Positions 11,312-17,140 of a DNA stretch of 57,210 nt are shown one piece after another. This stretch comes from Desulfuromonadales bacterium (GTDB lineage Bacteria > Desulfobacterota > Desulfuromonadia > Desulfuromonadales > JAHYIW01). The position numbers and the translations under genes are program-made. A model generated the notes under the pieces. That model was not told the origin of the DNA, made no database searches, and worked only from the letters and a program-made list of their open reading frames with translations. The stretch covers positions 1 through 57,210 of the forward strand of contig JARGFI010000014.1 of the NCBI GenBank assembly GCA_029210745.1. Reading direction: 5' to 3'. Position 1 is the stretch's first letter. Each line of letters begins with the position of its first letter.

Positions 11312-11911
11312 TTATAGCGGTGCGTGGAGAATTACCGAGCTGAATTCACTCAGCATGCGGTTGGCTATGACTGTGCATCCCAGCCTCTCGTAGCACTGTC
11401 GTACCGGAAAATTGTCTTCCCACAAGATGCCCGACAATAACAGCGTCGCCCCTGGCTGGGCCCGGTCGACAAGGGAAGGGGCCACAGCGACAAGGATGTC
11501 ACCGTAAATATTGGCCAGAATCAGGTCGAAGTCGCGGCTGTCAACATGATTCAACGTGCCGTGAATATGGGTGAGCCGATCAGACAGGTCGTTGCGGTGT
11601 CCGTTAAGCCGGGCGGTGGCAACCGCATCGGCCTCAATATCAACACAGACCGCGTGCGCCGCGCCGAGCTTGAGCGCGGCCAGCGCCAGGACGCCGGTCC
11701 CGCTGCCGAGATCGAGGACGCGGGCGTTACGCAGGGCAGGCAAGGTGGAGAGCAGATTAAGGCAACTGGCGGTGGTTTCGTGTTCCCCGGAACCGAATGC
11801 TCCGCGTGACATGATCAGGTCAATCCGCGCGGAAGGAGGGAAATGCTGGTCAGGGGAGACAATGCGAAACCGTTCGCCGATCAGTAATGGAGGGAAATTA
11901 TTCAGGCTCAT
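11312..11911 (-). CDS. PrmA-like methyltransferase, short form
   Basis: 199 residues with the class I SAM methyltransferase motifs of ribosomal protein L11 methyltransferase: AFGSGEHETTASCL, VLDLGSGTGVLALAALKLG, and DLILANIYGDIL. PrmA is usually about 290 residues with an N-terminal substrate-recognition domain of about 100 residues, which is missing here. It may methylate another protein or rely on a different partner. It overlaps the end of ptsP by 14 nt, so the two are surely co-transcribed. Confidence 0.8.
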   Translation of the reverse strand: MSLNNFPPLLIGERFRIVSPDQHFPPSARIDLIMSRGAFGSGEHETTASCLNLLSTLPALRNARVLDLGSGTGVLALAALKLGAAHAVCVDIEADAVATARLNGHRNDLSDRLTHIHGTLNHVDSRDFDLILANIYGDILVAVAPSLVDRAQPGATLLLSGILWEDNFPVRQCYERLGCTVIANRMLSEFSSVILHAPL

Positions 11912-14282
11912 TGGCTGGATTCATCTGCGGTGCCGCAAAACAGATGTGCGGCAGGGTATCGGTGATTTTTTTCGTCACGCGCGTCAAATGATCGCGAATG
12001 GCGCGACGATCAGTCATCTTCAGAACCGTCGCCGCCGCCTCCTCTGCCGTCCTGATGTCAAGTTGATGCAGAAACGCCTTGGTGCGTGGGACAAACGGTG
12101 CGGCCATCGAAAATTCACGAATCCCCATGCCGACCAGGACGGTGAGGCTGAGCGGGTCAGAGGCCATTTCGCCGCACAGGCAAAGCCCCTTGTTTTGCTT
12201 CCGGGCAACGCGGATGACGTGATGCAGGGCGCGCAGGACGCCGGGATGCAGCGGGTCGTAGTAGCCGTGTACGAGCGGATTGTTACGGTCGGCGGCCAAC
12301 ATGTATTGCACCAGATCGTTGGTGCCCAAGGCGAAAAAGTCAACCTCGTGGGCAAACTCCTCGGCCAGTTGAATGGCCGCCGGGACTTCGATCATAATCC
12401 CGATCGGCACCGAGTCCGTCGCGAGAATCCCCTCGGCAGTCAGTGCCTGACACGCCTCGGCGACAACCTCCCGGCAGCTGCGAATCTCTTCGATGCCGGA
12501 AATCATCGGAAAGAGCAATTTGACCGGGCCGTGCATGGCCGCCATCAGGATCGCTTCGACCTGGGTGCGGAAGATGTCACGGTTGTCGAGTGATACCCGC
12601 ACCGATCGCCAGCCCATAAAAGGGTTGTCTTCACGCGGCGGCTTGAAGTAGGGAAGCGCCTTGTCACCACCGATATCAAGGGTGCGGATGGTGACCGGCG
12701 CGCCATTAAAGCCTTCGATCACCTTGCGGTAAAGCAGGTACTGATTGTCACGATCAGGAAAATCACCGCTGGTCATGTAGGGGAACTCGGTCCGGTAAAG
12801 TCCGACGCCATCGGCACCGTTGCGCAAGGCGACGCCAATGTCGCTGATCAGACCGATGTTGGCGCGCAGGGTGATGACGGTTCCGTCCGCCGTGACCCCC
12901 GCCTGATCGAGAAATTCATCGAGACGGGTTTGCTCACGCTCACTTTCGATTTGGATCCGTCGATATTCCTCGACGATGTCGTCGTTGGGGTCGATGTAGA
13001 GACAGCCGGAATTGGCGTCAAGGATGACCGGTATACCAGGGGAGATCTGATTGCACACCCCCTTGACACCAACCAGCGCGGGGATGCCGAGCGACTTGGC
13101 CATGATGACGGCGTGCGAGTTTTTCTCTCCGGTTTCGGTGACGATGCCGAGGACTTTTTCATGGTCGAGAGCGGCCATGTCGGACGGCAAGATGGTCTTG
13201 GCTATCAGCACTCCGGGAGTGAGCAGGGTGAAGGACAACTTCTGCTGACCAAGCAGGTTGCCGAGCAATCGACGACCGATATCCTCCATGTCGGCGGCGC
13301 GCTCGCGCAGGTAGGGGTCATCCATGCGTTCAAAGATGCCGATATATTCTCCGACGATCTTTTTTAAAGCGTAGGGCGCGCTGTGGTGATTGTTGATTTC
13401 CTGCTTGATGCGTTCGAGAAAGGTGCGATCTTCCATAATCATCAGGTGCGTGTGAAAGATCGCGGCATCATCTTCGGAGAGTTTTTCCGCGACGCGTTTT
13501 TCCAGGTAGATGGTTTGAATCCGGGTCTTTTCAAGGGCCGCTTCGAGACGCTTAAGTTCACTTTCGGGATCAACGCCGGTTTCCATCAGCACGTCGGCAA
13601 AGCCGATATCGTTATCGAGTAAATGGGCGGCTCCGGAAGCCAATCCGGGATAAGCGACCGTTCCGCGGAAAACGTTGACCGCAGCGGGGTGGTCCACTTT
13701 GCCGGGGCCGGATGACGGCAAGAGGCGGTTCGGGTGCGTCATGGCCCGCTGGTTTTCCGTGGCTTGCCGGTTGATTGCGTCGAGCAGGCGCGCGTTGGTG
13801 ACCACCGAGGAAACCTGAAAGGCAATCGTTGCCAGGGTACTGATTTCTTCCGGGCTGAATTCGCGGCGTAGTTTGGTCTGGATCGCCATGACGCCGATCG
13901 GTTGGTTACGGTCAAAGAGCGGGACGCCGACAAAGGAGTGAAAACGTTCTTCGCGGGTTTCCTTGAAATAACGGTAGCGGGGATGCTTTTCCGGATCATC
14001 AATGGAGATGATGCGGCGTTCTTCGATCGCAAGACCGGTAAGGCCTTCATTGATTTTCATGGTGACGCGGCCGACGGCGCGTTTAGAGAGACCCTTGGTT
14101 GCGCGCAGACGCAGGGTTTCTTCATCATCGAGCAGATAGATGGAGCAGACCTCGGTGCGCATGCGTTTGGCAACCAGGGCGACGATATTGCTCAAGGTCT
14201 CGTCCAGATCGTGTGATTGCAAAATCAGCGCACTGATATCTTCCAGAGTGGTGATGCCGAGCGGGGTCAAGCGTCTGGGCAT
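11898..14282 (-). CDS. ptsP: Nitrogen-PTS phosphoenolpyruvate-protein phosphotransferase
   Basis: 794 residues: N-terminal GAF domain (about 10-160), PTS enzyme I N-terminal region, the phosphohistidine swivel (GEKNSHAVIMAKSLGIPALVG region, active His) and the PEP-binding barrel (LYRTEFPYM, SVPIGIMIEVPAA, CLCGEMASDP). It takes phosphate from PEP to an HPr/NPr-type carrier, and the GAF domain senses glutamine and alpha-ketoglutarate in studied homologues. The start at 14282 is chosen over 14312 because GGAGG lies 8 nt before it. A sigma-70 promoter at 14360-14389 serves it. The PTS-Ntr pathway is classically linked to sigma-54 genes, and the next upstream unit is a sigma-54 regulator. Confidence 0.9.
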   Translation of the reverse strand: MPRRLTPLGITTLEDISALILQSHDLDETLSNIVALVAKRMRTEVCSIYLLDDEETLRLRATKGLSKRAVGRVTMKINEGLTGLAIEERRIISIDDPEKHPRYRYFKETREERFHSFVGVPLFDRNQPIGVMAIQTKLRREFSPEEISTLATIAFQVSSVVTNARLLDAINRQATENQRAMTHPNRLLPSSGPGKVDHPAAVNVFRGTVAYPGLASGAAHLLDNDIGFADVLMETGVDPESELKRLEAALEKTRIQTIYLEKRVAEKLSEDDAAIFHTHLMIMEDRTFLERIKQEINNHHSAPYALKKIVGEYIGIFERMDDPYLRERAADMEDIGRRLLGNLLGQQKLSFTLLTPGVLIAKTILPSDMAALDHEKVLGIVTETGEKNSHAVIMAKSLGIPALVGVKGVCNQISPGIPVILDANSGCLYIDPNDDIVEEYRRIQIESEREQTRLDEFLDQAGVTADGTVITLRANIGLISDIGVALRNGADGVGLYRTEFPYMTSGDFPDRDNQYLLYRKVIEGFNGAPVTIRTLDIGGDKALPYFKPPREDNPFMGWRSVRVSLDNRDIFRTQVEAILMAAMHGPVKLLFPMISGIEEIRSCREVVAEACQALTAEGILATDSVPIGIMIEVPAAIQLAEEFAHEVDFFALGTNDLVQYMLAADRNNPLVHGYYDPLHPGVLRALHHVIRVARKQNKGLCLCGEMASDPLSLTVLVGMGIREFSMAAPFVPRTKAFLHQLDIRTAEEAAATVLKMTDRRAIRDHLTRVTKKITDTLPHICFAAPQMNPANEPE

Positions 14283-14359: not shown

Positions 14360-14389
14360 ATTATACAATAGATATGGTCGTCTTGGCAA
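14360..14389 (-). promoter_or_regulatory. Sigma-70 promoter of ptsP
   Basis: Leftward TTGCCA (14384-14389), 18-nt spacer, perfect TATAAT (14360-14365). It begins right where the terminator T-run of the unit before it ends, so ptsP has its own promoter and does not depend on read-through. Confidence 0.6.
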
Positions 14390-14429
14390 AAAAAACGCCG
14401 TACGGGGGAGAGAGAGCCCGGTACGGCGT
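14388..14429 (-). terminator. Rho-independent terminator before ptsP
   Basis: On the leftward strand ACGCCGTAC and GTACGGCGT form a perfect 9-bp stem, extended by GGG/CCC, around a CT-rich loop. Eight Ts follow (the A-run at 14388-14395). It ends transcripts coming from the right, either the sigma-54 regulator gene or the short transcript proposed at 14388-14476. Confidence 0.88.
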
Positions 14430-14476
14430 AAAGGGGGCATGAATTCCGCTGTCTGAGTGGATTGCCCGTGCATTTA
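14388..14476 (-). ncRNA. Candidate sigma-54-dependent small RNA (about 89 nt)
   Basis: The predicted start (about 14476) lies 12 nt past the -12 GC of a sigma-54 promoter at 14487-14502, and the transcript ends at the strong terminator at 14388-14429. The 5' half can form a second stem, GGGCA...TGCCC (about 14436-14467). No ribosome site is present, and the only early ATG is 3 nt from the 5' end. ptsP has its own promoter downstream, which argues against this being only its leader. Targets cannot be told from the sequence. The alternative is an attenuated long leader of ptsP. Confidence 0.5.
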
Positions 14477-14486
14477 TCACTTGTTA

Positions 14487-14502
14487 AGCATTAAGTGTGC
14501 CA
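14487..14502 (-). promoter_or_regulatory. Sigma-54 (-24/-12) promoter
   Basis: Leftward sequence TGGCACACTTAATGCT matches the consensus TGGCACG-N4-TTGCW: -24 TGGCAC exact, -12 region ATGCT with the essential GC at the right 10-nt spacing. Inverted repeats proposed as activator sites lie 97-234 nt upstream, a normal distance for enhancer-binding proteins. Confidence 0.65.
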
Positions 14503-14598
14503 AATAAAGAAGAAATGTATAAATATGACGAAAAATATTGAAAATAGCGTCATTCAGGGAGAGGCAATGGCTGAAAACTGCCAAAGGCGTGACATGGA

Positions 14599-14709
14599 TG
14601 GCACAGTTGAGTGTTGTGAAATAGACACAAGTCGGGAAATGGCGGCACATGTGGTCAAATTTCGGCACATTAATTTTAATAAGCGTATTATTGTGCCAAA
14701 CATGGCACA
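14599..14709. promoter_or_regulatory. Enhancer-like cluster of TGTGCCA/TGGCACA sites
   Basis: TGTGCCA-AACA-TGGCACA at 14692-14709 is a perfect 7-bp inverted repeat with a 4-nt spacer. Half-sites or near half-sites follow at about 14599-14605, 14643-14650 and 14663-14669. The same palindrome design occurs before the regulator gene (17123-17140, 17026-17042). The cluster lies upstream of the sigma-54 promoter at 14487-14502. The 14430-14716 stretch otherwise holds no protein gene I can support. Confidence 0.6.
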
Positions 14710-17122: not shown

Positions 17123-17140
17123 TGTGCCATTAATGGCACA
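17123..17140. promoter_or_regulatory. Operator, perfect 18-bp palindrome
   Basis: TGTGCCATTAATGGCACA is a perfect 18-bp palindrome in the gap between the regulator promoter and oppF. It defines the best site of the TGTGCCA-N4-TGGCACA set. No -12 element at sigma-54 spacing follows on either strand, so it is an operator rather than a promoter. Confidence 0.65.

Follow-up and report, generated by a model that had tools for sequence, protein, structure and literature searches.

A predicted sigma-54-dependent small RNA of the Desulfuromonadales that may connect a hydrogenase-like activator with the citrate cycle

Between the gene of a hydrogenase-like sigma-54 activator and ptsP, a stretch of 57,210 nt from a Desulfuromonadales genome (contig JARGFI010000014.1 of assembly GCA_029210745.1, here called the window) very likely carries the gene of an order-specific, trans-acting small RNA, which would be transcribed from a sigma-54 promoter fired by the activator and would use a CU-rich loop to block the ribosome-binding sites of citrate-cycle genes, thereby taking the role of the protein HgtR. 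The sequence-based support comprises the anatomy and conservation of the RNA, its linkage to the activator, a shared activator site, the complementarity of loop and targets, and a reciprocal distribution with an HgtR-like protein. A self-contained RNA gene controlled by the neighboring activator had already been proposed for this position in an original prediction made from the letters of the window; new here are the conserved CU loop, the citrate-cycle targets and the exchange with the HgtR-like protein. Desulfuromonadales couple the oxidation of acetate or H2 to the reduction of metals and sulfur and to electrodes. If the reading is true, a hydrogen-responsive small RNA governs the citrate cycle across an entire order of bacteria that reduce metals and sulfur. 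We found no description of this RNA in the literature.

Table 1. Features of the predicted small RNA locus and its neighbors (window positions).
Feature	Position	Strand	Basis and remarks
ptsP, downstream of the RNA	11898–14282	−	own sigma-70-like promoter at 14389–14360
Predicted small RNA, about 89 nt	14388–14476	−	promoter-to-terminator distance; extends from the predicted first base through the T run
Terminator hairpin P2, followed by U run	14395–14429	−	fold; compensatory changes in 5 of 11 consensus pairs
Apical CU-rich loop CUCUCUCUC, proposed seed	14408–14416	−	near-invariant in the family; complement GGAGAGAG at target ribosome-binding sites
Weaker 5' stem P1, GGGCA/TGCCC	14435–14467	−	suggestive only
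Sigma-54 (-24/-12) promoter TGGCACACTTAATGCT	14487–14502	−	motif match; conserved in 57/59 genomes examined
Second, degenerate activator site (UAS) TGTGCCATCCATGTCACG (10/12)	14588–14605		read from the sequence; some 100 bp ahead of the -24 element
Palindromic probable activator site (UAS) TGTGCC-N6-GGCACA	14692–14709		perfect copy, about 8 bp past the activator stop codon
Sigma-54 activator, 759 aa	14717–16996	−	Pfam; alignment to [FeFe] hydrogenases; linkage to the RNA
Other perfect UAS, ahead of the activator gene	17123–17140		palindrome search of own genome

The RNA locus lies on the minus strand between the activator gene and ptsP (Table 1), and the predicted transcript folds with -29.8 kcal/mol (z = -3.4). 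Its terminator agrees with the original prediction, having a stem of 12 pairs (9 + 3 with one mismatch between them) and eight U's behind it; a simple terminator scan of the window did not detect this hairpin, because the scan permits loops of at most 8 nt and the loop in this genome has 9 (CUCUCUCUC). What marks the family is a terminator loop of 10 nt, ANCUCUCUCC, with GGG/CCC as its closing pairs. In an alignment of relatives (A1) this loop is the best-conserved portion of the RNA, and the stem that carries it covaries with compensatory changes. Stem P1 also varies in a compensatory way among relatives (GGGG/CCCC, GGGAG/CTCCC, AAGGGAT/ATCCCTT and similar), yet no better than in shuffled controls. 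No Rfam family, including RsaE, Qrr and atoC, matched the window at its gathering score. The atoC RNA (RF01733), which showed only weak covariance similarity over a full-length alignment, was rejected with 18.2 bits, its gathering score being 50, and was seen in none of 17 loci of relatives, and Pseudomon-1 was likewise rejected as a weak similarity.

When 58 relatives were searched at the DNA level, the element turned up at 95% identity within the genus and was still recognizable across the order. Alignment A1 and the covariance model R1, which omits the promoter, were built from 34 RNAs, and R1 matches the window at 14388–14480 with an E value of 8e-15. The covariance search in related genomes that had been suggested as a check returned R1 matches in 93 of 136 Desulfuromonadales genomes (E ≤ 0.01), about 87 of them convincing; such counts of genomes are not counts of independent events, because relatives share the arrangement by descent. 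Among 141 genomes from the class's other orders, R1 matched 3, all near the threshold. The usual neighborhood is oppD-oppF-activator-RNA-ptsP, and weak matches in five genomes, which lie off the activator/ptsP locus, were not accepted as members.

The promoter motif TGGCAY-N6-TGCW has a single match in the 57 kb, where 0.64 would be expected by chance, so that the promoter alone proves nothing and the case rests on comparison. Among the RNA copies examined, 57 of 59 keep a -24/-12 element whose GG and GC are correctly spaced, a promoter score that shuffled sequences attain in 0.13%, and the placement of the promoter predicts RNAs of 87–122 nt across the relatives. One of the two exceptions has no good element in the fixed search window, and the other is without both promoter and activator. 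In the latter genome the RNA is retained despite these losses, and another promoter may drive it.

In most genomes ptsP lies downstream of the RNA, an arrangement that would also suit a cis-acting leader or attenuator, with sigma-54 transcription conditionally reading through into ptsP. The signals between the two genes speak against such a leader: the terminator is strong and its U run long, ptsP has a separate sigma-70-like promoter (TTGCCA-N18-TATAAT, 11/12) that begins where the T run ends, as originally proposed, and no alternative antiterminator fold was seen in the RNA. At six loci, moreover, the RNA is retained without a nearby ptsP or with ptsP 0.6–3.5 kb away, and it is because the RNA occurs without adjacent ptsP that we reject the leader, which we hold to be very improbable. 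With conservation across the order, a kept promoter, no complete ORF longer than 14 codons and retention independent of ptsP, the locus is very probably a self-contained RNA gene, in line with the original prediction.

The Pfam domains of the activator are ferredoxin, Fe-hydrogenase large-subunit, FeS, AAA+ and Fis-type HTH. Aligned with solved [FeFe] hydrogenases, it appears to retain the cysteine ligands of the H-cluster, and two H-cluster motifs are altered (TSCCP to SSHCP and PCTAKK to ACIAGK). The changes affect the cysteine of the proton relay and a lysine that is otherwise conserved, and they suggest that the protein is a non-catalytic sensor. Orthologues were counted by near full-length matches of the N-terminal half. 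Among the matches listed, all 79 within the order have the RNA; in 78 it comes immediately after the activator gene and on the same strand, and in the last one the two are on separate contigs. Without the activator gene the RNA persists in six or seven genomes (six loci in the comparison of neighborhoods). Genomes of this kind that also keep the promoter would need another activator. At two such loci, in genomes without the activator gene, both the palindromic site and the promoter are retained.

Upstream of the promoter, the palindrome TGTGCC-N6-GGCACA is the probable binding site of the activator. A UAS lies 80–250 bp upstream of -24 in all 52 activator-bearing loci examined and in 2 of 7 loci without the activator, and many relatives have UAS-type sites at -80 to -125. 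The genome itself contains exactly two perfect copies, one on either side of the activator gene, for which reason the RNA looks like the dedicated output of this activator. The comparison of loci thus lends support to the proposed control by the neighboring activator. The copy upstream of the activator gene suggests autoregulation, and no clear -24/-12 element was seen in that region. Four more copies of the palindrome in this genome have one mismatch each.

Downstream of the orthologous activator, the sister orders have the same palindrome, then a -24/-12 promoter and the gene of a 61-aa ribbon-helix-helix protein. This HgtR-like protein is present in 136 of 141 genomes of the other orders, as against 1 of 136 in the Desulfuromonadales, a weak match. 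In Geobacter sulfurreducens an activator gene precedes GSU3364, for which an RpoN promoter is predicted (PMC2725144). GSU3364 is HgtR, which is induced by H2 and lowers gltA, atpG and nuoA (PMC7894505, PMC7726332), and from the gene context (PMC2725144) the 61-aa protein is probably HgtR. Geobacter offers an orthologous activator, the same palindromic site, the same -24/-12 layout and an output that lowers citrate synthase under H2 (PMC7726332, PMC7894505); the difference is that HgtR is a protein that represses transcription, whereas the output here is an RNA without coding capacity. As the syntenic slot in the sister orders is a protein gene, a small protein might be thought to be encoded here as well, instead of an RNA. 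We consider this extremely improbable: most copies contain no complete ORF at all, the longest has 14 codons, no reading frame is conserved, and conservation is concentrated in the hairpin and its loop. The shared activator, site and promoter, the reciprocal distribution and the HgtR literature together suggest that one task is performed by a protein in one lineage and by an RNA in the other. It is reasonably probable that this is a non-homologous swap between a protein repressor and a regulatory RNA, with the same hydrogenase-like activator, site, promoter and target citrate synthase, and that an H2-responsive citrate-cycle small RNA operates order-wide.

The proposed targets come from an unbiased search of the window's own genome for GGAGAGAG-N2-10-ATG, with the reversed motif as control. 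The motif has six matches and the control none; four of the six start citrate synthase (gltA), isocitrate dehydrogenase (icd), malate dehydrogenase (mdh) and fumarase, and the other two belong to no plausible gene. The chance of all four real genes being citrate-cycle genes is roughly 4e-9, taking about twenty such genes among some 2,500. When seven genomes with the RNA are compared, no genes but gltA, mdh, fumarase and a NiFe hydrogenase subunit recur in at least three (some of the genes having been named by reading their N-termini), and matches in single genomes include sucD, pyruvate dehydrogenase E2, nuoE, nuoL and succinyl-CoA:acetate CoA-transferase. As a recurrent candidate target, the NiFe hydrogenase subunit does not fit any simple H2 story. 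Among the matches that the same scan recovered in three genomes without the RNA, no gene recurred and none belonged to the citrate cycle. The duplex of loop and target is predicted at -15.5 to -15.8 kcal/mol, beyond all 59 ORFs of the window that were tested (median -5.1, best -11.4 kcal/mol).

At gltA, at least 7 bases match the loop in all 49 RNA-bearing genomes scored and in none of 20 genomes of other orders, whose site, AAAGGAGA, matches 5–6 bases and is the ancestral gltA site. Within the order the presence of the RNA and that of its target site agree poorly, for 11 of 12 genomes scored as RNA-negative still carry GGAGAGAG at gltA, with 8 matching bases; unrelated CU-loop hairpins found at other places in some of these lineages may or may not explain it. 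The same retention could mean that the citrate-cycle GGAGAGAG is an inherited variant of the ribosome-binding site and that a sigma-54-dependent small RNA under the neighboring activator has other or broader targets, as would be conceivable for a CU loop that could pair with many GGAG-type sites, of which larger genomes hold 17–32. We regard this as unlikely, given that the motif before ATG is rare in the window's own genome with every real gene it marks belonging to the citrate cycle, that mdh, fumarase and icd have it in common with gltA, and that the pattern is absent from every scanned genome without the RNA.

With citrate-cycle mRNAs as the preferred targets, the following mechanism can be proposed. 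A reductant, H2 by analogy with HgtR, would alter the hydrogenase-like domain of the [FeFe]-hydrogenase-like Fe-S activator, which would bind TGTGCC-N6-GGCACA just downstream of its own gene and, from there, open the -24/-12 promoter, so that an RNA of about 90–110 nt ending at the terminator accumulates. Its exposed 10-nt CU loop would pair with GGAGAGAG at the Shine-Dalgarno regions of mRNAs from the citrate cycle, those of gltA in nearly all genomes and then of mdh, fumarase and icd, and block ribosome binding; the citrate cycle would go down, and acetate oxidation would fall, at times when electrons come from H2 or another strong reductant. By the same analogy the small RNA is probably responsive to H2 or redox state. 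Such a mechanism would be a concrete switch between the electron donors acetate and H2, would give a function to an uncharacterized family of hydrogenase-like sigma-54 activators, and would be a natural example of related lineages that apparently rely on an RNA and on a protein for one regulatory job.

Parts of this scheme have counterparts in other bacteria. The Qrr small RNAs of Vibrio are transcribed by sigma-54 with an activator; they differ in serving quorum sensing with LuxO and Hfq, and the RNA described here has no Rfam match. RepG of Helicobacter pylori uses its own C/U-rich terminator loop. It targets a G-rich mRNA sequence (PMC8295292), which is a homopolymeric G-repeat in a leader, whereas the predicted sites here are Shine-Dalgarno regions of metabolic genes, and the two RNAs are unrelated. 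RoxS/RsaE of Bacillus and Staphylococcus is a C-rich, redox-controlled small RNA that lowers citrate-cycle enzymes including citrate synthase (PMC8216469), and it is a precedent for a C-rich seed directed against such enzymes with no sign of common descent: control there is by a two-component system, here by sigma-54 and a hydrogenase-like sensor, the seed here lies in the terminator loop, and there is no match between the sequence families.

Four loci with weak R1 matches, in genomes without the activator, carry terminator hairpins with CU-rich loops that are not syntenic with the RNA described above, and two of them have two such hairpins in tandem. These hairpins are possibly a second family of anti-Shine-Dalgarno small RNAs in lineages without this RNA.
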